A stretch of DNA of 64,000 bases from Hirudinaria manillensis (Eukaryota; Annelida; Clitellata; Hirudinida; Hirudinidae): assembly GCA_034509925.1 (NCBI GenBank), contig CM067529.1, forward strand, positions 10,689,501 through 10,753,500, read 5' to 3'. The notes beneath the pieces are model-generated. The model did no database searches. It saw only the letters and a list, made by a program, of their open reading frames with translations, and was not told the DNA's origin. The position numbers and the translations under genes are program-made. Positions 19,895-63,519 of this stretch are shown one piece after another. Each line of letters starts with the position of its first letter. Position 1 is the first letter of the stretch.

Positions 19895-19909
19895 TATTTG
19901 GCGACGAGG

Positions 19910-38891: not shown

Positions 38892-40291
38892 ATGGAAGCA
38901 ATGTCTGCATTAAATTTATTAGCTGGTAAGAATAGAAAGTTATTGTTAATGATTGTATGTTCATAATTTACATTGGATTTGTTATAAAAATACGAGATAT
39001 ATTTTTATTTCAGAATCTTTGGTAATGCTTAATTTATGGATTAATTTAGCAAAATGCCACTACTATTGTGCTGATGATGTTGGAATATGTTTGTACACCA
39101 ACAAATCATTTGTTATGAGTTGGAACGAAGCCCGTGAAAATTGTCGCTTAAACGGAAGTATTTTATTGGAAATTTATGACGAAAAATATAAAGAAGTCGT
39201 CATTGATGCTATTCACAAGTTTCAGTTAGAAAAATATTATTTAATATTTGGATTGGAATATGTCAATAACCAATTTCGATGGTCCTCAGGTAAGTATTTT
39301 AAATGAATAATTTATTAATTATTTTTTCAACATTTGTTTTTCAATATTTTTATTTTCCTTGCTAATATAAATTTTATGGAAAAGAGTGACATTAACCTTT
39401 ACCAAAAAAGATGAATTCAATGGAACTTGTTATGCATTCCTGGTGGTGAATGGATCCCAATTATCTATTTCTCCTTTGTGTGATTACACACTTCCCAATC
39501 ACACCTTTGTATGTCTAAAAGGTTTTCAATTTTACCAAACATGAATGGAGACGTCATATCCTGACTCTTCTGTTATAACTTTTCAGTCAACAAAATATTT
39601 GTGACAGATACCTGATGACGTTTGTACATCGCAAGAATCGGTTGAAGTTTCACATTTCACCAGTTCTCAACAACATTGGTGAACAACATCCCCTCAAGCT
39701 GGCAATTGGAGTTGGTGTCGTTGTCCCAATGATTGTCATCTCTCTCGTTGTGTTTGATGTCTATTTAAGAAAACGAAGGTGAATCTTTTTTTATTTTATC
39801 TCTAGCCAATTTTGTTGCATTTGTCTACATTTAGTTATATTTAGCTAACTCAGGATAGAAGATTGATAGGAAAATAGAATATGCTATTGTCGCTTAGTGA
39901 TCCACAATCATACTACACCAAAGCATTCTAGATGAATTTGTGCTCTGCTGTTACTGAAGTGTTTTTTTTTCATTTTAAAAATCTAGGTAATAATTTGAAC
40001 ACGATATAATTTATTTATCAACGTATTACACTTTTAAAGGTTTTCCATTGTTTTTTGTTTGTTTTTTTACAATTGTTTAAGGTCCAAGAGATCAGCATTA
40101 GTCTGTCATGTTACCTCAAAAAAAAAGCAGAAGAGAATTGCAAGTCGAATGAAAATTCCACTGATATGAAAGCTTCAGTAAATGTGAATGACAGGACAAT
40201 TGACGTTCCAGATGAGGATCATTACGAGGGTCTTGTTGTATATGAAAATAACCATCACCATTACGACATCATGGGTTCTGAGAAATATTAA
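38892..40291 (+). CDS. C-type-lectin-like receptor A, Tyr-rich tail (splicing uncertain)
   Basis: Proposed exons: 38892-38925, 39014-39289, 39387-39521, 39664-39778, 40096-40291 (251 codons, in frame). Signal-peptide-like start, CTLD with CHYYC, SWNEARENC, the WIGL-like block YLIFGLEY, and GTCYAF ... FVCLK. There are no EPN/QPD or WND motifs, so calcium-dependent sugar binding is not expected. The stalk is short, with helix AIGVGVVVPMIVISLVV, basic RKR, then a tail with HYEGL, VVYENN and HYDIM. Two acceptors are unusual: the positions used by sister genes (39597 and 40081) would break the frame, while AGs further downstream (39663 and 40095) restore it. Either this gene shifted its splice sites and shortened the stalk, or it is decaying. 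Confidence 0.65.
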
Positions 40292-42038
40292 GTTACGCGT
40301 TTACTTAAAGTAATACTTTAATATTTAGATTTTTGATTCTGATTTCATTATTCGGTGTGAAAGTGAAACTGAAGCAAATATGTATAAAATATAATTATGT
40401 ATGATATAAAGTATAATATTTGATATAATGTTATAAATAATGTATGAGACGAAATGTCTTGTAATGTAAGCCATAATTTTATTAGTAATATTGTTGTTAG
40501 TGCCTTGTGATTGTAGAAAAATAATGTTTATAAAAATTGAATTTTTCGTCGGCTTGGATTGTATCTTTATCTATCTAATTTTATTGTATCTATTACAAAC
40601 TCTGAAATAAATATATTTTACTGAAAACATTTCAATTCTATTTTCATTGTTTTCTAACTATTTAAGATTGAAATTCTTATTAAATAACTTCAAACCACTA
40701 GTCTCAATATTTAATCCTGACACATTCAGAGTGGTTGATGCGAGATGTTATACGCTCGTTGATTGTCTGGTTTAGATATATAATACGATTAATTGATTTT
40801 AATTTAGAAATGATTCATAACCCATTTGAAATAAATTCAGTTGACCTCTGCTGTGGTATTAAATATATGATAACTGTTATGACTCCAGAATATCGAGATT
40901 TAAACGGTTTTTTAAAATCACCGCAACACGATACGGTACGAAATTACAACCGGAAACGAACGTGCCTCGACGCCCGAGGTACACAAAACCAAAGATTCAT
41001 ATAATCCTACAACAATAACAAATTTAAATTAATTATGTTTAATAAAAATTGATTCAGAAACTAATAAAATAACAAACAAATTCAACCCTGTGGGATTCCT
41101 TGTATCAACCCTAACAAGTCAATTCTTTTCAAACATCATCTGGAACAACTTCAGTTCATGTCTTTATTAAATTTGACCTCACATTAATTAATTTGAGAAG
41201 CCCCCCGGATTGCAACAATATTCATAAAACACATAAAAATGCATTATGCAATGATTATGTAATTGGATGTTTTAATACCACTATAAAATTCCTTCTCTTA
41301 AGATGATATGCCAATTTGGTAAGCGTTTAAAGACGATGTGATCAACTCTACTTTATTTGTGATGGCTAAAATTCTACAAAAATAAAATTTAAATTTAATT
41401 TTGTTTAATTAGCTCGAAAAATATTAATTAAATATTAAATTATATATTAAATTATAAACATTGTCGTTGTTGATATTCTATAGCTAATCATTTAATAGTT
41501 TGGGAAAATGTCTGTTTCTATTTTCACAGATCCAATTAGAGCGATGGTTCAAAGGTTACGGAGATGAACCGATGATCATCTGATTTAGTATAAAGAACGT
41601 AATTTTTTTTAAATATTTTTTTTTCATTACCTTGCTTATTTATTGTAAGTAATTTTTCAAAATAAGTTTATTAAACATAATCGCAAGTACATTAAATTTC
41701 AAATGTAAATAATCAGTCTAAACATTAGCAACTATAAAAAGAAAAACGTGACCATAAGATGAAAACACAAAAAAACACCAAGTAGGATCTAAACTCTTAG
41801 GAATATCTCAACCACGTAACAAACGCATAACGATTCCATTCAGATGGCTCAGAGAAATAAGAAATGAGCTACTAAATCGATTAAACACAGGATGTCCCAG
41901 GTTATGAATATGTTCGTTAATATCTTAAAAGTAAGACTTTGATCTTAAAGTTAGAACTCTAGAGAATTGTTCTGCAGTTCAATAATTACTTTCAATTTAA
42001 AATTTAATCACTTTAAAGTTCAAAATTCAATATAAAAC
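40292..42038. other. Spacer between lectin genes A and B
   Basis: AT-rich. It contains a solo LTR (40875-41014) and a block at about 41527-41580 loosely similar to the upstream module at 309 and 44660. The 41720-41940 stretch resembles 57200-57440 upstream of lectin gene G, so it may contain shared regulatory sequence. No gene is recognised. Confidence 0.5.
40875..41014 (-). mobile_element. Solo LTR related to element 2
   Basis: On the minus strand it reads like a diverged, shorter element 2 LTR (TGTTGTAGGATTATATG..., then TCTTTGGTTTTGTG, GTCGAGGCACG, CTCGATATTCTGGAGTCATAACA). It is 140 bp against 175 bp and flanked by a perfect 5-bp duplication ATAAC (40870-40874 and 41015-41019). This is the expected product of LTR-LTR recombination. 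A spurious 89-codon plus frame (40735-41004) overlaps it. Confidence 0.88.
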
Positions 42039-43356
42039 ATGAAGACGCAAGGTCTAAAAGGTTTATTCAGCTTTTTCAGAATAGTTTTAAATCTCTTAGC
42101 AAATTTAATCATATTTGTTGGGTGTTTTATTTTTGACTGTGAATTAATTACATAGTTTCATTGTTATTTGTTGCGTTGTGGCTAAATGGAAGAAAATGTG
42201 ACTTCTGTTGCGATGAAAAATCTGTGATCTGCCTGTTTACCAACTCTCTAGACACGGCAACAAGTTGGGAAGAAGCTCAAAGATATTGTTCTAGAAATGG
42301 AAGTATTTTGCTGGAAATTTACGATGAAAAATATAAAGATATTACATGCAAAGCTTTTATCGTATGTAATGGATCTCAGTTACGCATCGAACCATTTTGT
42401 GCTAACTTGAATGAAGGCCATCGATTCATGTGCTTAAAAGGTAATGTCGATATTTTTTATTGACTTTAAAATCAATTCATTTAACAATTCCTCATTTTAG
42501 ACAAAATTCCTGAGACAACCAAAACTAAATGGAACCAAATCTCAACTACTGAAACGACAACAAACAAAAACAAATTTACAACCACTGAATTCATTAAAGA
42601 CACACACACAGCATCACTCGACCACAATGTCCACCAATCAACTAAACCTCAACAACAGAACAACAACATTGCATTAGTACTCTGTACCGGCATTACACTC
42701 CCAGTAATTATTATCTCTCTCATCATTTTGATTATTGTCCTTGTAAAACGAAGGTGGGTTGTTTGTTTAGTTTTTCGTATTCATTTTGAAGCCACCTTTA
42801 TAACCTGTGTGACCTCTATTATAATTAATTAATTTTGTATAATTAGTTAATGTAGTTTAAATTCTGCCCAAGCACCATTATGCTTTGACATTCAGCGATC
42901 CAATTTGAGATGCCTACAAAACCATATCATAACAAAGAATTTTTAAATGAAAATATAAAATTGATCAACGTTTACCATTATTTTGAAAATCATTTCAAAT
43001 AAATACTTCTACAAGCGCGTGGATGTAATCGACAAACTATTAGAGAACTGTACAAGTAAATTAGGACGTTGATATATAATTTATATATTGCTTTTCTCTT
43101 GTTGAATCTTTATAATTTTATCAATCAAACAAATTTTATATCATGTATTTTATTTTATTATAGGTCAAAGAAAGTAAACGACGATTGCAGTACTCTGGAA
43201 TATGTCAGCGATCTCCCATCAGTAACTCCTTGCAATAGGGCATCATTATATTATGCTGATTTGGAATTAAAAGGAAATACTTCTGAATATAAAGAACAAA
43301 AGCTTTCATGGGAAATCCTTTTTATGTACAAAAATAACAAACTGAATTTTTGGTAA
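42039..43356 (+). CDS. CTLD receptor B with ITIM-like tail; 50-codon internal deletion
   Basis: Proposed exons: 42039-42060, 42156-42440, 42501-42753, 43164-43356 (251 codons). Signal peptide (SLLFVALWL), CDFCCD, SWEEAQRYC and SILLEIYDEKY; then the sequence jumps directly to CKAFIVCNGSQLRIEPF and HRFMCLKG. The WIGL-like core present in sister genes and the intron inside the domain are absent, so the lectin fold may be compromised. A Thr-rich stalk (TTTNKNKFTTT), helix PVIIISLIILIIVLV, basic KR, and a cytoplasmic exon with SLYYADLEL (an ITIM-type LxYxxL) follow. The last ~16 codons are shifted by one base relative to copy F (tttcatgg against tttcaatgg). The first donor is GTTTAT, weaker than in sister genes. 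May be a functional short receptor or in decay. Confidence 0.7.
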
Positions 43357-44355
43357 AACTGAACTGTCTGGTACACAAAAGAGCATTTAATATAACGTTT
43401 ACAATAAGCTGTTAAAATTCGTTGTTAAATTTTAATATAAATAAATGCACGAATACGTGGTTTTTTTTCACGCACACATTCTTTATTCAATGAAAAAAAA
43501 GCACTTAATATAAAACAACAGTAGGCCAGAAGGGATTTTCATCCCGCTGGGTGGCTAACCGTTAGCAACATAAATTATATAATAAATATGATATATAGTA
43601 CATAAATAATATATCAAGAATAAGTCGGATATTGGAAAAAGGATTAGTGGTGGATTCAGACAGTACATTCAGACAACATTCAATTAAGCACTTCTGCCAC
43701 CTGGGGACTAAGGGATAACTAGTTTATACGAGATTTTTATGAGCACATTGTATACACCTGCTGTCTATTTTAATTTCTTAAAATCAGTTCTAATTCAATG
43801 AAACTCTGATCGGGTTTCAATGCACACACTTTTCTTGTCAACTATGAGCAGCTATAGTTTTAGAAGTTTATTATTGGTGAAATAAACTCAAATTAATAAA
43901 TAAACTGATAACAATTTCCTATTTTTAATGGTTAATTCATATTTAATTACTTAAAAATAAATTGAACAATATTATATTACCAATTCATACAAGTTTACTT
44001 TCAACTACTGCCAATGTACGTAAATCAAAGAATAAAAGTCATGTTTTATAAATAAGTAATAAAATATTTTCGCCCGTGCTTCTATTTTTAGTCCTAACAA
44101 GTTTCTATGTTTTCGGGCATCTAAATAAAATTATTGCATTCAATTTGAAGCAATTTCGACATAAAATCCTGAATTAAAATTTGCGATTGTATGATTAAAA
44201 GTTAACGCGACCATAGATTCTTTCTCTTTAAAATACCATGTGTCATTTTGTTAAGCTTCTTAACAATGAAAGCCGATGTGAACAACTGTGATCGTCGAAA
44301 TTGAACAAAACTTAAAATTATTATTCGTTGCTGAGAATTTTGTTGAATTCAGAAC

Positions 44356-44880
44356 ATTCTAAAACTCATCAGAAACTTTATTGAGACAACTGTAAACAAG
44401 TAAATTGAAAATAAACGTCAAGAGTAATTGAATATTCGTCCATAAGTATGCTGACTCAAGCAAACCAACCAAACCCGCCTAATCCATTGCGAGAGTCCTT
44501 TTATAGGGACATGGAGTATTTGAATACGACATGGCAACAGATATGTTACAGTGAAAATAACGGAATTAATTAAAAGAACACTATATTTTTATATTTAATA
44601 TAATTAATAAATTTAATAATATTAAGTTTTGAATTAGTGACCGTTTTCTTTCTTCGCAGATCCTGATAGAGAGATTATTCAAAGTTTCGTAACGGCTAGG
44701 AAGATAAAGAATATTATATTTTCACATTAACTTCGTTACTAACTGAAAATAATATTTCTAAAAATGTATTTAATACAATATATACGATAAAAGCTTTGCA
44801 TATTCCACCAAAATTTCCAACGTTTGCAGGTATAAAAGAACATGGCATGCTTTTCAAGTGTATAATGTATTTAACACTTT
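44356..44880. repeat. Duplicated upstream flank, copy 2
   Basis: Near-identical to 1-517 apart from small indels (for example the 9 bp tgaaccatt... variation near 44480), and clearly related to 56590-57130. It ends just before the (GAT)n tract. Confidence 0.85.
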
Positions 44881-44917
44881 ATTTTGAAAATTCATCTTCA
44901 ATTAATAAAGAAGTTAA

Positions 44918-45014
<97 letters not shown>

Positions 45015-45026: not shown

Positions 45027-45312
45027 TAACTATGCCATTTTGCTCGGGCACGACGGGTGGCGTAGTGGCGAGACTTGACTGTAATTTATATGAAGAAGTC
45101 AGAAAATATCGTATCGCGAATTGAGTAATTGGTTGTAAAATATAATAATTTTTTAATAAATAAATAAATAAATTAATTAATTAAAAAAATTAATTAAAAA
45201 ATAAGTCAGACCTTATGAATTATTCAGAATCTTTTGTTCTACTCATTCGTAAAGGCGACAACGGCGACACGAAATATAACTACAAAACATAACAGATTAA
45301 AGCAGTTAAAAA

Positions 45313-46635: not shown

Positions 46636-49058
46636 ATTTTCTGCTGACTAAATAGGTCAAAAATGACAGGCATCATAAATTTGTTTTTGAATGATATTAT
46701 TTAATTCACAATGGCTGGGGACATTTTACTTCCTCCTGATGTCCACTGGATATTAATGAAATTTTGCATACTTATGAACATTTTTGTGACTAATCGTAAA
46801 ATTGAATTTGTTTAAAAAATAAATAAATGCTAATAGATATATTTAATACTTCTGACACCTGAAGAATACAGATTAAATAATTAATAAATTTACACGGTGG
46901 AATAACAATTTACAAGATCTACGATTTATCGTTGGCTGATACACATTTTATCTTGATGCCAATGTCCTTTTTTTTTATATTTTGAGTAAAAATAATAAAT
47001 TTTAATATATTTGTTAGAATGTTGTAAATAGTTTTCATTGTTTTAGTTCATCATGAAATAAAAAAATTATAATTATTTTTTATTTTGTGCATTTTAAACT
47101 GATATTTTTTAATCTGATATTATCATACAGGAAGTATTTTGAATAAAGCATTTACTATTATAAAAATCGAAATAGTATGTTAATCGCTGTTACGTTTAAC
47201 TGAGGTTTTGACCGGTTGCGAAATTTAAGGCGAAGTCGAACACCTGGATTCGAACCAGACCCGACACCCTGATAATTAGACGTCCTCATACTACGCCATT
47301 TGAAGAAGGTTACACGCTATCAAATGAACAATAACCAATATTTCTTTCTTCGTTTTGATCTTTCATGCTATGAAACGAAGGATTCGTGACTCAACAGAGT
47401 TTCACTACTACATAGCTAACCATGATGTCCTTCATGCTGGCCAGGCGATTAGCTTTTAACTTTGACATAACTAAAGTTTTGAACCGGTCGAAGCAACATT
47501 TTGAATTAAGTTATTTCTGAAATAATGACCATTCACCTGAAATTTAAATTTTAAATATAAATTTATTTTATTGTTCTTGCGAATCCGTTAAATTGTCTTA
47601 TTTTTGGGATGTGGATATAAACTTCGAATGTTTTTTTTTTTTTTGGTAAACAAAAAGGCAAGATGGAGATGTTTTACTTCATCTAAACAACAGCACAACA
47701 TACCATTGCATATCGATTGCTCTCCCCCACTGCCCGATTAGTCGTCATAAATTATTTTTAATAGTCTTAGTATTATCCATACACACTTAGGCTTATTAGG
47801 CGCAATATCCAAAATATTTGATCCGCTTTGATTTTCGTAATTTTGAATCCTCTAAAGATTTATAGCATCTGCTCATTCTCAGACCTATTCAGACAACTGA
47901 AAATAAATTCTAAGAATTGTATTCTCAGAGTAATTCTAAGACATTTTCTTTGCCTACAAAATTTTGCACCTCAAGGTTTTTCCAAATTTATAAAAAAAAA
48001 TTGTTTACTAAAGAATACTCGTCAACAGAGGACATCAATCAAATAAATAACAACGGACATTCCACTAAGCGGAGTATTATCTTCAAATAACCAGACAGCA
48101 TCTCTCATGTGATTAGAAAATTGTGTCTGCTTTGGTCGCAAGCGAAGACTATTCGTGCATCATAGTTATTCATTTGAAGCATACATCTGAAACAATGGCA
48201 GTATTATCATTTATCTACGGCTTCCTTTGCCACATCATATCTGACTAAGTTGACTAGGTTGATAACTAATCATTTGGCACAAAACTTTGCACTGAGGATT
48301 TTGAATAAATTGAAATAATGATTTTTCATACTTGTTCCAAATTTTCTTCTATATTTAGAATAATTTGATGATGTCTGTAAATTCGCCAAAAAGTTCTTGT
48401 TGGAACTGGCATGAAGTTTAATTGTAAAATGGAGGACAAAGAAAGGTTTAACTTATTTTGAGATATTCATCAGATACATAGAGCTTATTCATCTGAACAA
48501 TAGAACAACATTCCAACACTGGCAATACTGTTGCTGCCCAATGATCTATCACCTTATCTACGATGGTTTTTTTCAGTCGTCATCTTAAATTCATGCAGGT
48601 CAGATATGATTTCAAAGCGAATTGTGCTCCAAAAGCTTTGAAATCAAAGTGTATTGATGTGATACTTTAACATTCTTTATCATTGTATGACTATTAGTAC
48701 AGCTGCTAGTGTCACTTTTTTTTTAAATTAACTTTTTCATTTTCTTTTTAACAAAATAAGCGTGTTAAAGACATTAAACCATAAGAATATTAAGGGGTCT
48801 AATAATTAATTAGAAATTAAAATTCAAAAAATATTAAAAAAATTATTGCTATTGCGAACAAATCAATTGTAAAACAAATTTATAAAAAAGTACGGATGGC
48901 TTCGTTTACGTAAGGATAATAGGAACCAAAAATGTCTGAGTAATATCTGAGTTTAAAAAAATGGCTCAATTGTTAGCTTCATGCGCTACACATATTATGT
49001 ATATATAATGGGGATGTTACAATATGAAATACTTTCTTGTTTTGAATTAAAATTAACA
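46636..49058. other. Copy 6 3' flank, SINE relic and start of the 3.25-kb duplication
   Basis: AATAAA at about 46819. SINE relic at 47205-47330 (minus; B-box 47246-47256, A-box 47284-47298). From 47329 on, the sequence is near-identical to 60747 onward. Frames such as 47828-48046 recur in the duplicate only because the DNA is duplicated; no gene is supported before 49059. Confidence 0.65.
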
Positions 49059-50578
49059 ATGATTTCTAAATTAATGAATTTGAGAGGTAAGAGAAAACTT
49101 CTTAATCTTTCAAAATATCTTTAACATCAATTCTAGGATATAAAAAAAAAATGATAAAAAAAAAATATAATTAATTTTAAATGAAGTGCATAATAATATA
49201 ATTGCTAAACTCACAAAATATATTTAAATATTAAATAATTCAGTGATCCTTATCATTGCTGCATTGTGGCTGATTCGAGCAAGAAGTGACTACTATTGCG
49301 ACAGTGGAATCTGTCTGAACTTCAATTCTACAAATTTTGCCACAAGCTGGGAAGATGCTCAGAGTTATTGTTCCAGAAATGGAAGTATTTTGCTGGAACT
49401 TTATGACAATCAATATGCGGATGTTGCATTAAGAGCAGTTCAATATTTTAACTCAAAAACATTTTTGGTCGGATGGTATTTGTTACTTGGTTTGGAATAT
49501 AACAATGGTGAATATCGTTGGCTAACTACAAGTAAGCCTTTTTTTTATGTTGCGATGGTCGACAAATTAAATATTAAAAAATAAATTAATTGAAATTATG
49601 TAAAATCACCAATTTATCTAATTGATAGATAAACAGCGATTCAACTTCCACTTCATGTGCCTGGAGATTTTACCGGAACCTGCAGATGTTTTTTGGTTTA
49701 TAATGGAAGTAATATTCGGATTGAGGGACAGTGCCCTTTTACACCTAAATTTCATTGGTTCCTTTGCTTGAAAGGTTTGTCAACTTATACTTTGGTTTTC
49801 ATCCTTATCTGACATTTACGCAATTTTAGATAAGGTTAATTTGGCCACGTCACCAGAAATGACTACAAGAAGATTAACAACCTCATCTTTGTTAACTTCA
49901 TCAAAATCAACCTTTCCAACTACCAGAATCTCAGAATCCACTGCAGGCACTAAACATGCGACGACAATTGTTAAAAATCAACAACCAATAACAAGTGATC
50001 AGCAACATAACTTGAACGTTGCAATTGAAATTGCAATGAATTACTATATTTTGTCATCCCTTCTCTTGCTTAATGTTTTGTTTTAAGACATTGGCCGAAA
50101 CATTAACATTATGTGCTTTTAAGACTTTTTTTTGTATTCACTTTAGCAATTACCTGACGTAAGAAATGAACTATACTAATTAGTTAATAAGAATAATAAT
50201 AATTTTACTGGGAATTATCGTCCCATGTAAAGTTTAAAAACAGACTAAAGTTAACACAAGCACGAACGATTATCATTTGCCGAGTTTTCCATTTCTGTAC
50301 CATTCTACCAACAAGGTCCACTTTCGTCTTCGATATTCCCATTCATGTTGCAGAATTTTGCATCATTTTGCAAAATTTGACTTTTGCATGAAATCATTAT
50401 CACCGAACATCAATAAAACGAAGTGTGAAAAACAGAGTTATCCTGTGAATCCAACACTCATTGGGTTATTGCTATTTATTAATTTTTAATTCAAAATTTT
50501 AAAATATGCTAAAGTTTTGATAAATATAATAATAATCACAATTCAAAATATAAATAAAACAGAGCCATTACACATGGT
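47329..50578 (+). repeat. Segmental duplication, copy 1 (~3.25 kb)
   Basis: Direct repeat of 60747-64000 with scattered substitutions and short indels. It starts at the edge of the SINE relic (tcaaatgaacaataacc) and includes a whole tail-less lectin gene. The second copy runs off the window end, so the full length is unknown. Confidence 0.93.
49059..50086 (+). pseudogene. Tail-less CTLD gene C1 (frameshifted copy)
   Basis: Exon plan as in the intact copy at 62487-63519: 49059-49086, 49244-49531, 49629-49774, 49830-50086. Exon 3 is 146 nt instead of 147: an A is missing near its start (gataaacag against gataaaacag), which shifts the frame and removes the GTCRCFLV and CLKG end of the domain. 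Two further changes nearby replace NHR by FHW, as expected under relaxed selection. The remaining exons look normal: signal peptide (ILIIAALWLI), CDSGIC, SWEDAQSYC, YLLLGLEYNNG. Probably a pseudogene, or a source of a truncated protein. Confidence 0.8.
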
Positions 50579-50751
50579 TTCAGTTTCAATGGCATTACTT
50601 AAAACTTTAAATAACTCGTTATGATTAAAAGCTTTGAATCCTTTGAGGCACTCAGTTTCAAGCACAGTACAAACGTTATATGAATTATATGCTCGTTTAG
50701 TGTGGAAGGCAGTTGCTGAGACATCGTTTATGTACTGAATATAAAATAACA
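50087..50751. other. Spacer C1 to D
   Basis: End of the 3.25-kb duplication at about 50578, then about 170 bp unique to this locus. No gene. A 69-codon minus frame at 50543-50752 overlaps the start of the next gene and is not credible. Confidence 0.5.
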
Positions 50752-51786
50752 ATGGTTTTCCGGATGAATTACGTACAAGGTAAGTGAATAATTAAGAAAA
50801 TGTTTTCAGTTTGATGAGCAACAATTTAAAATTAGTAATAATAAAAACGTTACAGTACAATTAAAATTGCAATAAATTGAATAAATTTGCAAATTTAACA
50901 AATTTAACATCTTATAAGTAATAATACTGCAATAATATTTAAAAACATTTAGTGACACTGTTGTTTACTGTGTTGTGGTTAAGAGGAACCCTATGTGATT
51001 ACTACTGCGATAACGACCTTGGAATTTGTCTGCATTTTAATGACATGTACCTTGCCGTAAGTTGGGAAGACGCTCAGAATTATTGTTCAAAAACTGGAAG
51101 TATTTTACTGGAGATATACGATGAACAATACGCCGATGTCGTATTGAAAGCCATTCATCATTTTAGCAAAAAAACGTTTATGATTGGATGGTATTTATTA
51201 CTTGGATTGGAATACAACAACGGCCAATATCGTTGGTTGACAACAAGTTGGTGATACTATTAATTGTTTTCAAATGATTCAATTTAAAAATGTAAACCAA
51301 AAATCAAACAATAATAAATATATAAAATACTAGATAAAACGGTTACTCAACTACCACTGCCCACACCTAGAGACCTCTTTGGAACTTGCAAATGCTTTGT
51401 GGTTTTTAATGGAACTCAACTGCGAATTGAGGGAGAATGTTTTGTTGCAGTTAAACATCATCGATTCCTTTGTTTGAAAGGTTTGTCCAAAGCGTAGGTT
51501 TTAAATTTAAACCTTAAATTAAATTTAAACCAATTACGTTTTTATAGAAAAAAATAATCTGGCCACATCACCAAGATTAGATTTAGGATCTGTATCAAAC
51601 CCACCTGTATCAACCTCATCAACTTCAACCCGTAGGCCTCTCATGATTTCAAAACCACCCTCATCAACTTCAACTCGTAGACCTGTCATTAGTTCAAAAT
51701 CCAGTGCAAGAAAATCGAACATTGCAGTTGGAATCGCACTAACTTATACTTTGTCATCTCTTCACATGCTTGCTAAGCTGTTTTAA
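50752..51786 (+). CDS. Tail-less CTLD protein D, possible GPI anchor
   Basis: Four exons: 50752-50779, 50953-51246, 51334-51480, 51548-51786; 235 residues, all junctions phase 1. Signal peptide (TLLFTVLWL), CDYYC, WEDAQNYCSKTGSILLEIYD, YLLLGLEYNNGQYRW, then GTCKCFVV ... HHRFLCLKG. The Ser/Thr/Pro-rich stalk contains two near-repeats of STSTRRP (about 51600-51690). The protein ends in a hydrophobic segment (AVGIALTYTLSSLHMLAKLF) with no basic stop-transfer residues or tail, which fits a GPI signal, though a secreted or tail-less membrane form is possible. No calcium-site motif. The second donor reads a|GTTGGT, shared with gene G. Confidence 0.82.
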
Positions 51787-53454
51787 TGCATATGTTTCAG
51801 TGAAATACATTACATAACCAGAATAATGTATTTCACCACATCTCTATTATAAATCAATATTCACAGATATACAGAGGCTTATTAGACTTTTAAAATCACT
51901 TTTCTAGTCACTAAAACAACAAATTATGTACTATTAAAGCTGTTATTATTAAAAACAATCCAACACTCATTGGGTTATTTTTAATTAAAAATTTAATTGT
52001 TAATTCCCATTCCTTTGAAAATCATTAAAAACAAATCAAAGTTCACACAACAGGTTACCACAAACATCACTTTTCAGCTCATTAGTACGAGTGAACGATT
52101 GCTATATTTGTGGCTTTTTGCTTTAACCGGACCTTCATTTATAAAGTTTACGCCACCTTAGATTTAACCTGTTATATGTAATCTCTGTTTGCTCTAGGTA
52201 GGATGGGTAGCAAAACCACTCTGTTATATCCCCAAAACCCTCTGTTAAAGTCTTCGTGAATTTAATGGATATTTAATAATAAAACGATGGATGATGTTTT
52301 TCCATGACATTAGCGACACTCTTTTTCAATTCCTATATTTTGAATAAATAAATGTTCTTAGTTGGTATCTTGCGCTATTTGTTTATCAATATACTGCCTT
52401 CGTAAACAATGTTGCCTTATCCGTTGTGATCCATCAAGGAAAGTGATTGCCCAACCTTGTTTTATATACATTAATAATAGTCTACATAAATTTGAAACAA
52501 GATATTAAAATTCCTGTATACCACCAACATTTCTGAATTGTTTGATAAATTAACTGTTCTGCTTCTAATTTGTGATTGATTGAGTTCATTTTTGTTGTTT
52601 TCTCTCTGTTATCAGATGTGAATATTGAAGTTGGAAGCGCATCTTGAAGTAATTAGTTTCAAAGGTATCATAAAAAAGCGTGTTCTTTGCTACAGTCTAA
52701 AAGTGGAATACAATTTGTTATTGTACCGAAAGACGTTAAGCATTTATATAAAGATTGTTTACTCTGTTGGATTATGTTTTGTAACGTTATCGATTACGTT
52801 TTATCAGATATAGTATTTTTAACAATCATCTTTAAAAGTTTAAGTTTTATTTTTATTAATTTACAAATAACAACTCAGTAATCCAGTTTTTTTTTTCGAC
52901 AGAGGATGAAAGAATCTGCAGCACACACAAAAAAAATAATTCATCTTTGTTAGCTTCAAGTAACTTAAATTTTGGACTCTGAATGAAAGCAATCAACATT
53001 GATTGTTTAAGAAAATTCAATTTATGAGAATTCGTTTATATAAACACATTGATTGCAATGGAAGATAATTTTACTTGTGGTTGTAACCCGTGACCCATTT
53101 ATAATAGAACTCGATTAAGAGTTAAATATATACATTATTATCTATAATATCATTTAAAGTAACATTTAAATTTCATAAATATTTAGTAGACTGATAGATC
53201 CGTTTGAATATATTATAAATTTCTAAATGATTGCAATTCGGCACTGGGGAACAAATTTTTAAAAAAATCGAAAATATTAAAACAATTACGTTTACGTTAC
53301 CTACAACAATAATAACAATAAAATATAGCTCGAAATATATCTTATATTTGATAAAATACAAGCTAACTCATAGTCAGAAGAGCAATCAAACATCATAAAT
53401 CTCCAAAACCAAAACATTTTAGACAAAGTTGAAATAATAACAAAACAAAAAACG
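51787..53454. other. Spacer D to lectin exon relic
   Basis: AT-rich with no recognised gene. The first ~200 bp share fragments with the 3' flank of C1 (ccaacactcattgggtta at about 51960), consistent with tandem duplication of C and D. Short frames at 52625-52881 and 53173-53361 have no supporting features. Confidence 0.5.
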
Positions 53455-53571
53455 GAGATCTTAATGGAACATGCAAATGTTTTCTTGTTTTTAATGGAAC
53501 TCAGTTACCTCAGAATTGAGGCTTCTTGTATTAATGCAGCTACAAACCATCCTTTCATATGTTTAAAAGGT
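53455..53571 (+). pseudogene. Orphan CTLD exon-3 relic
   Basis: This reads like lectin exon 3: GDLNGTCKCFLVFNGTQL, then a frame break caused by a few extra bases (ttacctcagaattgagg), then a shifted stretch equivalent to NHPFICLKG and a GT donor (gtatgtc). No matching exons 1, 2 or 4 are seen nearby. It is the remnant of another lost lectin copy. Confidence 0.8.
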
Positions 53572-53961
53572 ATGTCAACATATATTTTAAATGTTATACA
53601 CATGTAATAACTTAAATTTACATTTTCTTCGGAAAAATAATTTGACAACATATGTATCTTTTAAATTTTATTAAAATAATATGGTTTTATTGTAATTGTA
53701 GTAACTTATAAAATCATGCACCATAACTGACTATAATTTATCTATCAATGTTATAATTATTAAAGAATTCGTTTATAATAATATTCTGGAAGCTATTTGA
53801 CTGAATATATTTGGACCTAACCTAGCAACTATAGATAATTGAATACTTTGAAAAATTGAATGAAAAAAATTTATAACATTTAAAAACACATCTCTAGCGA
53901 AAACGTCAGTTAAAAGTTCAATATTTTCAATTTGGTTACATTACAAACATTAATTTTTCAG

Positions 53962-55147
53962 AGTCATTGTTATTTGCTGCGTTGTGGATAAGTGGAACAA
54001 AATGTGACTTCTACTGCGATGACAAATCTGACATCTGCCTGTTTATCAACCTTTCGTACACGGCAACAAGTTGGGAAGAAGCTCAAAGATATTGTTCTAG
54101 AAATGGAAGTATTTTGCTGGAAATTTACGATGAAAAATATAAAGATATTACATGCAAAGCTTTTATCGTATGTAATGGATCTCAGTTACGCATCGAACCA
54201 TTTTGTGCTAACTTGAATGAAGGCCATCGATTCATGTGCTTAAAAGGTAATATCGATATTTTTTATTGATTTTAAAATCAATTCATTTAACGATTCCTCA
54301 TTTTAGACAAAATCCGTGAGACAACCAAAACTAAATAGAACCAAATCTCAACTACTGAAACGACAACAAACAAAAACAAATTTACAACCACTCAAATCAT
54401 TAAAGACACACACACAACATCACTCTACAACGATGTCCATCAATCAACTAAACCTCAACAACAGAATAACAACATTGCATTAGTACTCTGTACCGGCATT
54501 ACACTCCCAGTAATTATTATCTCTCTCATCATTTTGATTGTACTCCTTGTAAAGCGAAGGTGGTTGTTTGTTTGTTTAGTTTTTCGTATTCATTTTGAAG
54601 CCACATTTATAACCTGTGTGACCTCTATTATAATTAATTAATTTTGTATAATTAGTTAATGTAGTTTAAATTCTGCCCAAGCACCATTATGCTTTGACAT
54701 TCAGCGATCCAATTTGAGATGCCTACAAAACCATATCATAACAAAGAATTTTTTAATGAAAATATAAAATTGATCAACGTTTACCATTATTTTGAAAATC
54801 ATTACAAATAAATACTTCTACAAGCGCGTGGATGTAATCGACAAACTATTAGAGAACTGTACAAGTAAATTAGGACGTTGATATATAATTTATATATTGC
54901 TTTTCTCTTGTTGAATCTTTACAATTTTATCAATCAAACAAATTTTATATCATGTATTTTATTTTATTATAGGTCAAAGAAAGTAAACGACGATGGCAGT
55001 TCTCTGGAATATGTCAGCGATCTCCCACCAGTAACTCCTTGCAATAGGACATCATTATATTATGCTGATTTGGAATTAAAAGGAAATACTTCTGAATATA
55101 AAGAACAAAAGCTTTCAATGGGAAATCCTTTTTATGTACAAAAATAA
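53962..55147 (+). pseudogene. CTLD receptor F, duplicate of B with nonsense codon
   Basis: Exons matching gene B: 53962-54246, 54307-54559, 54973-55147. It shares the same 50-codon in-frame deletion in the lectin domain. The stalk exon has a TAG at 54336-54338 where B has TGG (KTKW), which removes the stalk, membrane helix and tail. The tail exon downstream is still intact, with SLYYADLEL, and ends in MGNPFYVQK. I could not find a convincing first exon. Best read as a recent pseudogene of a B-type receptor; a truncated secreted product cannot be excluded. Confidence 0.78.
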
Positions 55148-57540
55148 CAAATTGAATTTTTGGTAAGACTGAACTGTCTGGTACACAAAAGAGTATTTAA
55201 TATAACGTTTACAATAAGCTGTTAAAATTCGTTGTTAAATTTTAACATAAATAAATGCACGAATACGTGGTTTTACACTCCGACAACATTCAATCAAGTA
55301 CTTCTGCCACCTGAGGACTAAGAGATAACTAGTTTATAAGAGATTTTTATGTGTACTTTTTATATGCTTGATATTCGTCTATTTTAATTTCTATTTTATT
55401 CTATGAAACTCTGATCGGGTTTCAATGTAGACACTTTTCTTGTCAACTATACGCAGCTATAGCTTTAGAAGCTTATTATTGATGAAATAAACTCAAATTA
55501 ATAAATAAACTGATGATAATTTCCTATTTTCAATGGTTAAATCATATTTAATAACTTAAAAATAAATTGAACAATATTATATTACCAATCTGCTATTCAT
55601 ACAAGTTTACTTTCAACTACTGCCAATGTACGTAAATCAAAGAATAAAAGTTATGTTTTATAAATAAGTAATAAAATATTTTCGCCCGTGCTTCTATTTT
55701 TAGTCCTAACAAGTTTCTATGTTTTCGGGCATCTAAACAAAATTATTGCATTCAATTTAAGACATTTCGACGTAAAATCCTGAATTAAAACTTGTTTTTT
55801 CATAAATTTTGATTTTCCCTTTTTAATCTTAGTAAATATAATTGTAAAAATGTGCCACGAGATGCAATTATCACTTTAGTTATGAGTGATTAAGAATAAA
55901 TTAGTCCTGGGATAGAGGTTTCAGTTCATATGAATCGCTTTGATCTTGTTTTCATCCGTTGTTAGTGTTATAACCTTATACACAAGAAAATAACACAAGA
56001 CGTTGATGGTAAGCATAGTGATGATGAAGTACAACTTCGACAATTTGCCATCAGAAGGTTGCCCTTAGAACTTATTGAATGAATTTGAATTGTCAATAAA
56101 CCACTTGTTAGAAAAGTAGACATCTTTTTAAATGAATTTATTGTTACTCCTAACAGTGACGATTAGAACCAGTAGCACATCTGGAATGGGGGAGGAAATG
56201 AAATCCATTGAAATAAAGTCGTGATGAATCAAATATTTACATACATTCATCAGGGCCTGATTTTCCCGTAAAATTTATCTCTCATCCAAGTTTTACTTCT
56301 GACGTAGTATTCAGAATCCTTAACTTATCAGGACTTGTATGTTTTTAAGTATGTCTTTAAGGATGTCTCTTTAATAATAAATTAAATGTATTGTTAATTT
56401 ATTGCTTAAAATATCATTACGCACTGCGATTGCATGATTAAAAGTTAACGCGACCATAGATTCTTTCTCTTTAAAATACGATGTGTCATTTTGTTAAGCT
56501 TCTTAACAATGAAAGCGGTTGTGAACAACTGTGATCGTCGAAATTGACAAACAAAACTTAAAATTTCGTTGCTGAGAATTTTGTTGAATTCAGAACATTC
56601 AAAAACTCTTCCGAAACTTTATAGAAACAACTGTAAACAAGTAAACTGAAAATAAGCGTTAAGAATAATTGAATATTCGTCCAAAAGACTTAAGCAAACC
56701 AGCCAATCCCCCTAATCCGTAAACCATTACGAGAGGCCTTTCATAGGAACATGGAGTACTTGAATACGACATGATAACAGTTGTGTTGCAGTGAAAATAA
56801 CGGAACTAATTAATAGAACATTAGATTTTATATTTAATAATATTAATTTTTGAAAAAAAATGGCTATTTTCTTTCTTCCCAGATCTTGATAGCGAGATTA
56901 TTCAAAGTTTGCATAACGACTAGGAAAATAAAGAATACCATATTTTCACATTAACTTCGTTATTAAATGAAAATAATATTTCTAAAAATGTATTAAATAC
57001 AATATATACGATAAAAGCTTTGCATGTTCCACCAAAATTTCCAACGTTTGCAGGTATAAAAGATCATGCCATGCTTCTATCGTATATAATGTATTTAACA
57101 CTTTATTTAGAAAAATCATATTCAATTAATAAAGAAGTTAACTATTAAATCGCCTATAAATGAAATGTTAAATGCAAGCGATGAATGGTAGGCTAAATAT
57201 TAACAACTGTTAAAAGTCAAAACGTGACCACGATATGAAAGATTTTAACAAGCAACAAATACCAAGTAGGAAGTAAGCATCTGAGAATGTGTCATCCCCG
57301 TAACAAACATATTATGTAGCGCTTCCATTCAGTTGGCTCTGAGAGATAAACACGAGTTCGTAAACCCTTAAATGCAGGAAGTAAGTCTTAAATTATAAAT
57401 AGTTCAATAAACATCTTTAAACTAAGATTTTGATCTTAACGTTAGAACTTTAAAATGACTTAAAGTGAAATAAAGTTCCGCTTTTCAACATTTGCCATCA
57501 AATGCCTTCATTTAAAAATTATTAGACGTAGCTTACCAAG
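55148..57540. other. Spacer F to G (segmental duplication of 43380-44880)
   Basis: 55285-55780 and 56425-57130 match the spacer before gene copy 6; about 640 bp between them have no counterpart there. 57200-57440 resembles 41720-41940 upstream of gene B. Probably contains shared upstream regulatory sequence of the lectins. No gene is recognised. Confidence 0.6.
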
Positions 57541-59049
57541 ATGTCAAAAAGTCTAACAGGTAAATTACACTTTTTAAAATCAGTTCCAATCGGCTAACAA
57601 ATGTAATATATTTTTATTGTTTAGTTATTATTAACTGTGAATTAATTATACAGCTTTACTGCTATTTACTGCGTTGTTGCTAATTCGAACAAAATGTGAC
57701 TCCTATTGCGATAACAACTCCGGCGTTTGCCTGTTTACCAACCAATCGTACAAGGCAACAAGCTGGGAAGAAGCTCAAGGATACTGTTCTAGAAATGGAA
57801 ATATTTTACTGGAAATTTATGATGAAAAATATAGAGATATTACTATGACTGCTTTAAATAACTTTAACTCCTATTTAATTGAATGGTATTTATTACTTGG
57901 ATTGGAATACATTAATGGTCAATTTCGATGGTTAACAACAAGTTGGTGATATTTCATGTGATTATCATGTTAATTAATGATTAATTTATTATGAAAATTT
58001 TAATTTTAGAAAGAATAGCTACTCAAGTAGTACCAATAAACATTAGAAGTTTTAGTGAAACATGCAAAGCTTTTATCGTGTGGAGTGGATCTCAGTTACG
58101 CATCGAACCATCTTGTGGTAACTTGAATGAAGGCCATCGATTCATATGCTTAAAAGGTAACAACAATGTTTTTTTTTTTTGCAATTTATCAGTTTATTTA
58201 ACGCATCTTCATTTTAGACAAAATCAATCCGACAACCACAACCACTTTCAACCAAATCTTAACCTCTGAAATGACAACAAAAAGGGACGCATCGTCAACT
58301 TCTCAAAGCATATTAAGCACCCAGCAAATATCACCCAAAAACAATGACCATCAATCCGCTGAACCACATCAACAGAATAACAACATTGCAATAGGAGTTG
58401 GTGTCGGTGTTACTCTCCTAATAATTATCATCTCTCTCATCATTTTCATTGTGATTCTTTTAAAGCGAAGGTAGGTTGTCTGCTTTTTTACCTTTTCATT
58501 TTGAGATAATACTTGATACCGTGAGCGATCTCTTTCCCAACTTTGCCCGAGTAACATTATGTCTTGTGTTCTAGAGAGATGCAAATTTGTTGAGTTCAAT
58601 ATCACAAATTTATTTAAAATTTATTGGTTAAAAATTATTTAAAATGCAAGATTAATTATTTTCTATTATTTTGAAAATGATTATAAATGAAAAGTGACTG
58701 CAGAATTTATTGAAAAGCACATGTATATTCCTGGCACAATATTTTAGAATAAATAGAATAATAAGTAGTATAACTATGAAACAAATAGTTGCATTAAGAG
58801 CTTATTAAATAACTCAACTATATTGCTAAATCTTCGCAATTTTATTTTATAAACAAATTTTTTAATATATTTATTTATAGGTCAAAGAAAGCAAATGCCG
58901 ATAGCGGTACTTTGGGATTTGCCAACGATCAATCACCAGTAAATCCTTCCAATGGGACATCCTTGGTTTATGCGGATTTAGAATTTAAAGAAAATATTTC
59001 AGTATCTAAAGAGCCCATGTATTCAGCGGGAAACCAATGTAATGAATGA
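57541..59049 (+). CDS. CTLD receptor G with ITIM-like tail (intact)
   Basis: Five exons: 57541-57559, 57654-57941, 58010-58156, 58218-58470, 58881-59049; 291 residues, consistent phases throughout. Signal peptide (ALLLFTALLLI), lectin domain with CDSYCDNNSGVC, SWEEAQGYC, YLLLGLEYINGQFRW, TCKAFIV and HRFICLKG. EPN/QPD and WND motifs are absent, so a protein or other non-calcium ligand is likely. A Thr/Ser-rich stalk (TTTTTFNQ-like) and a helix beginning GVGVGVTLLIIIISLII, followed by KRR, form a type I membrane anchor. The tail has SLVYADLEF, an ITIM-type sequence. Such motifs recruit SH2 phosphatases in vertebrate receptors; that role here is inference. This is the cleanest gene of the cluster and the model for the others. 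Confidence 0.87.
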
Positions 59050-62000
59050 CGATAACAATCTCCTTTGTTTTGCCACAATTATGAACAATTGTCCGGTACA
59101 AATTAGAAGCATTTTGTAAAGTTTAATAGCATGGTTGTCAAATGTATTTTGCTTGATTAACTACTATTATTATGTAAACTTTATTATTATTATTCTACTT
59201 TTTATTATTACGACTATTAGTGTTCTGTAATTTTAAATTTACAATCTTATTTATTTAAAATATTTAATTCATGTCGATTTAGATTAGATTGAATGTCTTA
59301 ATGATTTAGGATCAATTTCAACCATTCATTAGAGATCTTATTCGTCTGTTTATTTTTTACGTATTAACTCATTATTAGGGCATTTACCACCACAGCCACC
59401 AATTGTTTGATCAGCTTCTTCTGTTTTCCAAATGCTACTAGATTTGAATGTATCACAAAGTTCGAGGAATTCTTATTGTGAAATTTATTTCTGAAGGTAG
59501 AAATTATTACTAATACAAAGAAATATTTAATGCACAGTATTAAATAATAATTTGTTTGGCATCAAATAAATTGCCGATGATTGTTTTTAACAATTTTAAT
59601 AATTTAATAAATAATCATTTAAAACAAAATCACTTTCTAAATAAATTGCATTATTAACTATATACACATATTACCAAATGCATAATATAATAAATTGATT
59701 AAGTTTTAATTCGTCGTAAATGATTTTCGGTTTAGTTCAAAAGTAACATTTCCTACCTAAAAGTTTAAAACATCGTGGGAAGTTCTCCAAAATATGAACA
59801 AAACATTGGATGCTCAACAAATCTACGAAGGTCATCATTGATCCGTAAAGAGTTTCCGAGTACGAAACAGCCTTGCGTACAAGATGGATACTCATTTATA
59901 TATAGAATTATATGGACATCTAAGAACCGACATGTTGAATTGTAAATGTTTACAAAACAAATTATGTACTTCTCTCATTATTAAATTAACTAATTTTAAT
60001 TTTATGTTGGGGTCTGGAAGTAGACCGTGAAGATGATTAAAATCATTATTGTGAAATATGAAGTTATTTATAAAAAAAAACTCATCTTCTTAAAAAAAAA
60101 CGCTTTCTGAAAGCTGAAGAGCAAAAGATTCATTGCAATTAATCTACAATCGATTAGAATTCTACCAGACTCGACATACCTGACTACAAGGGATCATGGA
60201 TCCTAAGCTAAGGACTTGACCCTAGAAGAATGGTACCGAAAAATTTTTATTTTACAAATCTTTGTAAATAATAATTGTGCCGGTCTGGAATTCTCTGTAA
60301 TTTTGTCAAACTACATTTTAGATGCCTCATTAATGACATTAATTAATTTCTAAATTCTTGTCCCAATCAACATTTCTATCGCACATCCCCGATTGTTGTT
60401 AGTGGTCTCCAGAGTCTAAACCTATCTATTTGCGAAGCACTAATAAATAAATAACTAATTGAATACGTTTAATAATGCTACTTAATACTTGGCATATAAT
60501 GCATTTCATATTTATTATTACCACGATAACAAAATAGACATTTAATAAATAAATACTTAAGGCATTTAAATGTAACAATTGCATTTTTATATAAAATAAA
60601 ATAAATCTTCAACAAAGGACTGAAAATGATCAAAGAAATTTTCCTATCCTGACAACAAAAACTTTTGCAATTCATCGTTTCTTCGACGTAATGAAAAGCA
60701 AGAAACTTTGAAGTTTGATGTCTTAACAAAAACGTACGAACATTTATCAAATGAACAATAACCAGTATTTCTTTCTTCGTTTTGATCTTTCATGCTATGA
60801 AACGAAGGATTCGTGACTCAACAGAGTTTCACTACTACATAGCTAACCATGATGTCCTCCATGCTGGCCAGGCTTTTAACTTTGACATAACTAAAGTTTT
60901 GAACCGATCGAAGCAACATTTTGAATTACGTTATTTCTGAAATAATGACCATTCACCTGAAATTTAAATTTTAAATATAAATTTATTTTATTGTTCTTGC
61001 GAATCCGTTAAATTGTCTTATTTTTGGGATGTGGATATAAACTTCGAAAGTTTTTTTTTTTTTGGTAAACAAAAAGGCAAGATGGAGATGTTTTACTTCA
61101 TCTAAACAACAGCACAACATACCACTGCATAGCGATTGCTCTCCCCCACTGCCCGATTAGTCGTCATAAATTATTTTTAATAGTCTTAGTATTATCCATA
61201 CACACTTAGGCTTATTAGGCGCAATATCCAAAATGTTTGATCCGCTTTGATTTTCGTAATTTTGAACCCTCTAAAGATTTATAGCATCTGCTCATTCTCA
61301 GACCTATTCAGACAACTGAAAATAAATTCTAAGAATTGTATTCTCAGAGTAATTCTAAGACATTTTCTTTGCCTACAAAATTTTGCACCTCAAGGTTTTT
61401 CCAAATTTATAAAAAAAAATTGTTTACTCAAGAATACTCGTCAACCTAGGACATCAATCAAATAAATAACAACGGAACATTCCACTAAGCGTAGGTATTA
61501 TCTTCAAATAACCAAACAGCATATCTCATGTGATTAGACAATGGCGTCTGCTTAGGTCGCAAGCAAAGACTATTCGTTCATCAGAGTTATTCATTTGAAG
61601 CATACATCTGAAACAATGGCAGTATTATCATTTATCTACGGCTTCCTTTGCCACATCATATCTGACTAAGTTGACTAGGTTGATAACTAATCATTTGGCA
61701 CAAAACTTTGCACTGAGGATTTTGAATAAATGGAAATAATGATTTTTCATACTTGTTCCAAATTTTCTTCTACATTTAGAATAATTTGATGATGCTTGTA
61801 AATTCGTCAAAAACTCCTTGTTGGAACTGGCATGAAGTTTAATTGTAAAATGGAGGACAAAGAAAGGTTTAACTTATTTTGAGATATTCATCAGATACAT
61901 AGAGCTTATTCATCTGAACAATAGAACAACATTCCAACACTGGCAATACTGTTGCTGCCCAATGATCTATCACCTTATCTACGATGGTTTTTTTCAGTCG

Positions 62001-62486
62001 TCATCTTAAATTCATGCAGGTCAGATATGATTTCAAAGCGAATTGTGCTCCAAAAGCTTTGAAATCAAAGTGTATTGATGTGATACTTTAACATTCTTTA
62101 TCATTGTATGACTATTAGTACAGCTGCTAGTGTCAGAGACACTTTTTTTTTAAATTAACTTCTTCATTTTCTTTTTAACAAGATAAGCGTGTTAAAGACA
62201 TTAAACCATAAGAATATTAAGGGGTCTAATAATTAATTAGAAATTAAAATTCAAAAAATATTAAAAAAATTATTGCTATTGCGAACAAATCAATTGTAAA
62301 ACAAATTTATAAAAAAGTACGAAGGCTTCGTTTTCGTAAGGATAATAGGAACCAAAAATGTCTGAGTAATATCTGAGTTTAAAAAAATGGCTCAATTGTT
62401 AGCTTCATGCGCTACACATATTATGTATATATATAATGGGGATGTTACAATATGAAATACTTTCTTGTTTTGAATTAAAATTAACA
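59050..62486. other. Spacer G to C2
   Basis: 59050-60746 is AT-rich and unassigned (frame 60478-60750 on the minus strand has no supporting feature). From 60747 the sequence repeats 47329-49058. No gene is recognised. Confidence 0.5.
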
Positions 62487-63519
62487 ATGATTTCTAAATT
62501 AATGAATTTGAGAGGTAAGAGAAAACTTCTTAATCTTTCAAAATATCTTTAACATCAATTCTAGGATATAAAAAAAAATGATAAAAAAAAAATATAATTA
62601 ATTTTAAATGAAGTGCATAATAATATAATTGCTAAACTCACAAAATATATTTAAATATTAAATAATTCAGTGATCCTTATCATTGCTGCATTGTGGCTGA
62701 TTCGAGCAAGAAGTGACTACTATTGCGACAGTGGAATCTGTCTGAACTTCAATTCTACAAATTTTGCCACAAGCTGGGAAGATGCTCAGAGTTACTGTTC
62801 CAGAAATGGAAGTATTTTGCTGGAACTTTATGACAATCAATATGCGGATGTTGCATTAAGAGCAGTTCAATATTTTAACTCAAAAACATTTTTGGTCGGT
62901 TGGTATTTGTTACTTGGTTTGGAATATAACAATGGTGAATATCGTTGGCTAACTACAAGTAAGCCTTTTTTTTATGTTGCGATGGTCGACAAATTAAATA
63001 TTAAAAAATAAATTAATTGAAATTATGTAAAATTACCAATTTATCTAATTGATAGATAAAACAGCGATTCAACTTCCACTTCATGTGCCTGGAGATTTTA
63101 CCGGAACTTGCAGATGCTTTTTGGTTTATGATGGAAGTAATATTCGGATTGAGGGACAGTGCCCTTTTACACCTAAAAATCATAGGTTCCTTTGCTTGAA
63201 AGGTTTGTCAACTTATACTTTGGTTTTCATCCTTAAGATATCTGACATTTACGCAATTTTAGATAAAGTTAATTTGGCCACGTCACCAGAAATGACTACA
63301 AGAAGATTAACAACCTCATCTTTGTTAACTTCATCAAAATCAACCTTTCCAACTACCAGAATCTCAGAATCCACTGCAGGCACTAAACATGCGACGACAA
63401 TTGTTAAAAATCAACAACCAATAACAAGTGATCAGCAACATAACTTGAACGTTGCAATTGAAATTGCAATGAATTACTATATTTTGTCATCCCTTCTCTT
63501 GCTTAATGTTTTGTTTTAA
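62487..63519 (+). CDS. Tail-less CTLD protein C2, possible GPI anchor (intact)
   Basis: Four exons: 62487-62514, 62671-62958, 63056-63202, 63263-63519; 239 residues. Signal peptide (ILIIAALWLI), CDSGIC, SWEDAQSYCSRNGSILLELYD, YLLLGLEYNNGEYRW, GTCRCFLV and HRFLCLKG. A Thr/Ser stalk (MTTRRLTTSSLLTSSKSTF) is followed by a hydrophobic C terminus (YYILSSLLLLNVLF) with nothing after it, consistent with a GPI signal. No calcium-site motif. Intron 3 (63203-63262) is 60 nt with no in-frame stop, so its retention would add 20 residues without a frame change. Upstream flank and signal exon are duplicated with gene C1. Confidence 0.85.

Follow-up and report, generated by a model that had tools for sequence, protein, structure and literature searches.

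Receptors that come in activating and inhibitory pairs are known mainly from vertebrates. In the vertebrate natural killer (NK) complex (KLR, Ly49, NKG2 and the Dectin-1 cluster), clustered genes for proteins with a C-type lectin-like domain (CTLD) signal through an immunoreceptor tyrosine-based inhibitory motif (ITIM) or through an immunoreceptor tyrosine-based activation motif (ITAM) or hemITAM, and opposing members are paired. The lectin receptors of this complex are type II proteins with N-terminal tails. Here, a window of 64,000 nt from the leech Hirudinaria manillensis (C4:10689501-10753500) was analyzed, of which the interval 38892-63519 carries CTLD receptor genes; positions without a contig name are those of the window. 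The profile of the leech CTLD matches NKG2D and Klrb1b, but the order of signal exon, CTLD, stalk, transmembrane (TM) segment and C-terminal tail makes the leech products type I. We consider it rather probable that they belong to an invertebrate paired-receptor complex that works like an NK cluster, with ITIM-bearing and ITAM-like twins and additional tail-less binders. This reading builds on the observed gene structures and conserved motifs, on three ectodomain clades that each contain both tail types, on breakpoints next to the tail exon and on the presence of effector genes.

The FcoR proteins of Botryllus schlosseri are also invertebrate type I receptors of a large linked family with ITIM or hemITAM tails, and some FcoR loci swap the two by alternative splicing (PMC12065747). 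FcoR proteins have Ig and sushi ectodomains and come from a chordate, whereas the leech cluster encodes single CTLDs in an annelid, each gene has its tail type fixed in the genome, and a tail-less clade exists. Because topology and ectodomain differ, the leech cluster is a member of neither the NK complex nor FcoR. Drosophila Draper is a protostome receptor with an ITAM form (Draper-I), the ITAM being read by Shark, and an ITIM form (Draper-II) bound by the SHP-2 orthologue Corkscrew (PMC8092387). Draper, however, is one gene with an EMI/NIM ectodomain and a splicing switch, in contrast to the many genes and genomic tail-exon exchange of the leech. Siglec-11/16 and CEACAM likewise pair inhibitory with activating receptors, and the Siglec-11/16 ectodomains are homogenised by gene conversion (PMC5701461, PMC2832619), but these receptors are mammalian and Ig-type, without a CTLD. 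ITIM/hemITAM receptors are reported from a tunicate, as are ITAM/ITIM motifs from Hydractinia (PMC12065747). No CTLD receptor with an ITIM or ITAM from an annelid or other protostome was found in the titles and abstract beginnings of the open-licence papers listed. If the paired-receptor reading is true, a CTLD-based paired arrangement arose convergently in protostomes. Since ectodomain and tail lie on separate exons with visible exchange points, the cluster would then be a system in which it is directly testable how fast, and under what selection, a receptor turns from inhibitory to activating.

A protein search of the 148.4-Mb assembly (23 contigs) with the product of gene G gave 122 exon matches at E≤0.01, the majority of them in C4:10676219-10841920. 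Other matches form a second group at C4:10318831-10345325 (opposite strand); C6 has several more, and C8 and C12 have a single match each. The interval is a piece of a 166-kb cluster of about 40 loci that extends beyond the window on both sides; an exon map of the stitched region C4:10670001-10850000 shows, by our count, 40 loci (including relics) that have one or more CTLD exons. The phenomenon is thus real and larger than an original prediction for this DNA had described. That prediction of at least six CTLD genes or copies on one exon plan holds, as the interval contains seven CTLD loci (A, B, C1, D, F, G and C2) and the exon relic E. The common plan consists of a signal exon, one exon for each half of the CTLD (N-terminal, then C-terminal), a stalk and TM exon and, in the tailed genes, a tail exon. 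The introns follow the phases 1-1-1-2 and have GT/AG borders, and B and F have a single fused exon in place of the two CTLD exons. The features of the interval are as follows:

38892..40291, + strand: gene A, with signal exon 38892-38925, CTLD exons 39014-39289 and 39387-39521, TM exon 39664-39778 and Tyr-rich tail exon 40096-40291 (DEDHYEGLVVYENNHHHYDIM, type II/hemITAM-like)
42039..43356, + strand: gene B, open frame with TM segment and type I tail, weak exon 1 donor
43246..43263, + strand: ITIM of B, LYYADL
47318..60745, + strand: first 13.4-kb tandem unit (C, D, E relic, F, G); the array continues to ~C4:10781900, 98.7% identical
49059..50086, + strand: gene C1, tail-less, with a frameshift at exon 3 relative to C2-C4
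50764..51786, + strand: gene D, clean and tail-less, with a Ser/Thr-rich stalk and a hydrophobic C-terminus
53457..53568, + strand: E, a relic of CTLD exon 3 alone, between D and F
53962..55147, + strand: F, a pseudogene 96% identical to B, with a stalk-exon stop near 54336
57541..59049, + strand: gene G, with exons 57541-57559, 57654-57941, 58010-58156 and 58218-58470, and tail exon 58881-59049
58963..58980, + strand: ITIM of G, LVYADL
62487..63519, + strand: gene C2, a clean tail-less CTLD gene

Two types of tail exon were identified. Type I contains LxYAD[LI], an ITIM, and lies downstream of the TM exon, at a distance of ~240-410 bases in B, G, V4 and V8 and of ~1.9 kb in Z. Type II contains YExL-x9-YASL, an ITAM-like pair, and follows the TM exon at ~70-80 bases in the open H and V genes and at ~300 bases in the A genes. 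Eight aligned type I tails (F copies and G3 left out) have 10 invariant columns, four of which are the L, Y, A and D of L-x-Y-A-D-[LI]. Among 13 aligned type II tails (A2 left out), Y-E-x-L, Y-E, H and Y account for seven of the 13 invariant columns. The ITIM pattern [SIVLT]xYxx[ILV] was found in all four type I tails tested (G, B, V4 and Z). Three type II tails were compared with YxxL/I-x(6-12)-YxxL/I, which H1 and V2 match with a spacing of 9 and A1 fails (M at the last position); the double motif arises in 0.3-0.6% of shuffles of H1 and V2. The hemITAM consensus has acidic residues just before a single YxxL, and by a loose home-made pattern V2 and A1 (DEDHYEGL) match it and H1 does not. Basic residues follow the TM segment in the tailed genes measured. 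Genome searches with one query tail per type at E≤1 gave 11 type II and 12 type I matches, all within the cluster.

An ectodomain tree was made from 18 rows drawn from the 40 loci, with three rows of the second group as outgroup. Four clades were resolved, C/D (support 100/97), G/B/H (98/97), A/Z (100/99) and V (100/99), and type I and type II tails co-occur in each of the latter three. A constraint placing all type I or all type II ectodomains in one group was rejected. Similar, linked ectodomains with predicted opposing tail types are thus present in three clades; the type II members of A/Z are damaged, and both tail types are open in the G/H and V clades. Matched ITIM and ITAM-like genes share 89% (V4-V2), 91% (V8-V7), 84% (G-H1 and G-H2 each) and 87% (Z-A) nucleotide identity, and most of these pairs are located outside the interval 38892-63519.

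The DNA of these genes is mosaic. V4/V2 (84%) and V8/V7 (88%) are alike from the 5' end into the TM exon, where the match ends; G/H2 (80%) and B/H2 (87-90%) are alike as far as intron 4, and Z/A2 (86%) as far as the intron preceding the TM exon. H1/V1 are similar solely from the TM exon into the 3' DNA. In pairs with the same tail (V4/V8 and G/B), the match runs on through the tail. Because DNA similarity ends between the ectodomain or TM exon and the tail exon, we infer that tail exons were exchanged between ectodomains.

Selection was assessed as the ratio of nonsynonymous to synonymous substitution (dN/dS) by simple counting, which is noisy for short parts. Ectodomain ratios were obtained for 17 of 22 pairs; 16 of the 17 are below 1 and 13 fall at 0.16-0.52, and the four highest (0.67-1.26) are all among V pairs. 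Comparisons between tails of one type gave 0.35-0.88 in seven type II pairs and 0.21-0.41 in three type I pairs.

Exons 2-5 are open in six genes with a type I tail (G1-G3, V4, V8 and Z) and in six with a type II tail (H1, H2, H3, V1, V2 and V7), and exons 2-4 are open in seven tail-less copies (C2-C4 and D1-D4). G2 is counted exon by exon only; it has a visible variant tail acceptor and all its exons are open singly. A search for exon 1 in 13 loci gave a good one in G, C2, D, V1, V2, V4, V7 and V8.

In the tail-less genes D and C2, the hydrophobic end is weaker, with 1-3 residues beyond the best 19-residue window and no basic run. The mean hydropathy of the C/D ends is merely 1.28-1.55, and possible omega sites for glycosylphosphatidylinositol (GPI) anchoring were seen by a home-made rule. 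The original prediction named splicing of the tail-less genes to a tail exon as an observation that would count against it, and on the exon map no tail exon was found 3' of C or D (tblastn E≤0.01). In the TM exon alignment, C2 and D1 have an identical 13-nt gap, after which the TTTTAAAG that codes for the basic end of the G, H1 and V products is read as TTT TAA. Because of this shift, the tail-less state is probably derived from a tailed one via a 13-nt loss in the TM exon, judging from the placement of the gap. The C2-D1 ectodomain is under strong constraint (dN/dS 0.16). Tail-less genes were rejected as partners of the ITIM genes, because C and D form an ectodomain clade of their own and C2 and G share 54% protein identity. 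The suggested comparison of ectodomain phylogeny with tails gave three clades that mix tail types, with C/D standing apart. The suggested analogy with vertebrate NK receptor clusters is retained in a changed form, since the pairing is between ITIM and ITAM-like tails and not between tailed and tail-less genes.

Among the seven loci of the interval, only G (tailed) and D and C2 (tail-less) are clean genes. The G product has a signal peptide, CTLD, Thr-rich stalk, TM helix, KRR and a tail with LVYADL, and is a clean type I receptor; its TM helix is strong (mean hydropathy 3.41 across 19 residues) and its tail reads ...GTSLVYADLEFKE. Of the three loci previously proposed to carry ITIM tails, G is clean and B is open, but B has lost the middle of its CTLD and F is dead. 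The deletion in B is in frame and leaves six Cys (by eye), so that B, still open, may make a mini-CTLD. Loss of the CTLD middle (~42343-42346 in B and ~54152 in F) has turned two exons and an intron into one in-frame exon, in both cases without loss of the six Cys. F was rejected as a tailed receptor and is not countable as a receptor, because it shares the CTLD deletion of B, has only weak exon 1 candidates and carries the stalk-exon stop in 3/3 tandem copies. The proposal that C1, C2 and D are tail-less with a hydrophobic end applies to C2 and D; C1 was rejected as a working gene in the present assembly for its exon 3 frameshift. The different Tyr-rich tail proposed for A aligns with type II, but by our reading the sole open model of A needs acceptors for exons 3-5 unlike those of its relatives. 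Two A copies upstream of A have an intact tail and a damaged signal exon.

At E≤0.1, seven of 12 members of the family match Pfam Lectin_C, with 6.6e-6 as the best E-value. In a scan of five window proteins, it is listed for G (0.021), C2 (0.0022), D (2.1e-5) and A (0.0013) with no match in B, D alone passes the Pfam cut-off, and no Ig or sushi match was found at E≤1. A profile of the 12 members retrieved nine distinct PDB sequences at E≤0.01, every one from a CTLD-bearing protein, with matches to LY75, PLA2R, the IgY receptor, NKG2D, Klrb1b and CD302. Six Cys are invariant in 12/12 aligned sequences, and a WIGL-like stretch is present. EPN/QPD and WND are the motif names of calcium-dependent sugar-binding C-type lectins. 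None of them was found by eye in the 12-row alignment, which suggests that the CTLD of the cluster is probably calcium-independent. The family is divergent, as a six-frame Lectin_C scan of the genome listed 36 matches with zero inside the cluster. Full-length G had no homologue at E≤0.01 among 7996 candidates scored from 5.8 billion proteins. A CTLD profile search returned one protein at E≤0.001 among 2675 candidates scored, a 111-aa reading of one exon on an ENA contig that is 66% identical over 64% of the query.

SH2 exons and phosphatase exons are present in the genome among the matches listed. One locus is of SHP type, with two SH2 domains and the start of a tyrosine phosphatase domain, and another is of Shark type, with SH2, ankyrin repeats, SH2 and a tyrosine kinase; in both, pieces of open reading frame (ORF) were joined by eye. 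These genes make both signs of signalling possible. In the mechanism we propose, the cluster would be a tandem complex of type I membrane receptors, each with a single, probably calcium-independent CTLD, in which exchange of the last exon would join related ectodomains to alternative cytoplasmic tails. The ITIM of a type I tail would recruit an SHP-type phosphatase and cause inhibition, and through the YExL...YASL pair of a type II tail, a Shark/Syk-like kinase with tandem SH2 domains would be recruited and cause activation. The tail-less C and D products would probably be GPI-anchored or otherwise tail-less binders or decoys, and immune-type cells would read the balance between opposing receptors with common ligands. 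The proposal presumes that the receptors are expressed and phosphorylated, that their signals have the assumed direction, and that ligands are shared and the C and D products GPI-anchored. We give about an even chance to the wider claim that a protostome independently built an NK-complex-like CTLD locus in which tail-exon exchange reverses the signal, with one or more such events in each of three clades, giving ligand-matched activating and inhibitory twins and tail-less decoys.

The main rival explanation is that the tails are endocytic YxxPhi sorting signals of lectin-type uptake receptors, the two types differing in trafficking and not in signal sign. Both motif types do match YxxPhi (YADL, YEQL and YASL), and the best-scoring solved CTLD proteins, LY75 and PLA2R, as well as CD302, are type I endocytic receptors. 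We nevertheless consider this unlikely, since the conservation exceeds YxxPhi (Leu at -2 in type I, the middle YE and fixed x9 spacing in type II) and uptake alone needs no two unrelated tails swapped on close ectodomains. Less likely still, unequal crossing-over and decay during neutral tandem duplication may have shuffled the exons and left tails with little function. The motif tyrosines are invariant though the tails have otherwise diverged, the G/H and V clades keep both tail types open, and nearly all ectodomain ratios (16 of 17) lie below 1, most of them (13) at 0.16-0.52; these observations speak against neutrality, despite the 13.4-kb unit [C, D, E, F, G] being present ~3.4 times at 98.7% identity, the many broken copies, and dN/dS near 1 in some V ectodomain pairs and up to 0.88 in some tails. 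That the C/D products alone matter, as GPI-anchored or shed CTLD decoys or secreted lectins beside tailed remnants, would fit the seven open tail-less copies and the constraint on C2-D1, but we regard it as very improbable, given that six ITIM and six type II genes are likewise open in exons 2-5 and that the tail-less state looks derived.

Several points weigh against the paired-receptor reading that we prefer. The chief doubt is that the receptors are known here from genomic DNA alone and that a single tyrosine motif arises easily by chance; shuffling the four type I tails tested yields the ITIM pattern in 3-27% of cases. With 9 residues, the type II spacing is larger than the 6-8 of classical ITAMs. 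The aligned tails are paralogues, several of them near-identical, so the invariance counts few independent lineages, and same-type tails, taken whole, show no strong constraint by dN/dS where it is computable. A tree of the tails alone fails to reject the H tails as one group (p 0.255); because the tail tree cannot prove the H1 exchange, the H1/V1 case depends on the DNA mosaic. Exon 1 is weak in H2, H3, Z and F, and in H1 none was found. Numerous loci are broken, and genes of the A lineage are in decay. The GPI signals of C and D are suggestive only. Since the search with the type II query did not recover the A tails at E≤1, other distant tails in the genome could have gone undetected.

A lone relic of an A-type tail exon lies at C4:10671155-10671253 (+), upstream of the first gene of the cluster, and therefore the cluster formerly extended further left. 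The second CTLD group, C4:10318831-10345325 (-), seemingly has three consecutive CTLDs per gene and is interleaved with tyrosine phosphatase exons on the same strand (C4:10308673-10361427, -), ~330 kb from the main cluster; CTLD-ectodomain phosphatases are possible. A third, more distant CTLD group was found at C6:245238-266230 (+), with TM segments NLPLAIGLGVGIPLGLLIIGALVALIIFTVRR. Many tyrosine phosphatase exons were found at C11:1769914-3437767 and C4:10439579-10462024 among the matches listed (150 of 267 candidates scored), suggesting that the tyrosine phosphatase family is expanded.

The window also contains a family of ~440-aa single-exon ORFs in six blocks, ~90-97% alike at the DNA level. 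One copy was scanned against Pfam, without a match at E≤1. The copies are:

1020-2345, + strand: ~440-aa ORF
13176-14489, + strand: ~440-aa ORF
24343-25674, + strand: ~440-aa ORF
30499-31848, + strand: ~440-aa ORF
36652-37974, + strand: ~440-aa ORF
45310-46635, + strand: ~440-aa ORF

Among these blocks lie two retroelements, at 7270-12291 (-) and 19871-23779 (+), that have long open frames and are Ty3/gypsy-like by eye.

Elsewhere in the assembly, COX1 was located on a 15.6-kb mitochondrial contig, where TGA encodes Trp; AGR reads as Ser, ATA as Met and AAA as Lys against conserved COX1 positions. The genes cox1, cox2, cox3, nad6, cob, nad4, nad1, nad3 and nad2 lie on one strand, with tRNA-Gln after cox3; this order was read by eye with part of the contig unreadable, and atp8, atp6, nad5, nad4L and the rRNA genes were not placed. 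One-strand genes and a conserved order are described for leeches and most annelids (PMC4866719). A tunicate origin of the DNA was considered, but the COX1 reading and the mitochondrial gene order indicate an annelid. A full-length COX1 copy with a score equal to that of the mitochondrial contig lies at C9:3026446-3027786 (+) and is either a nuclear mitochondrial insert or an assembly error.

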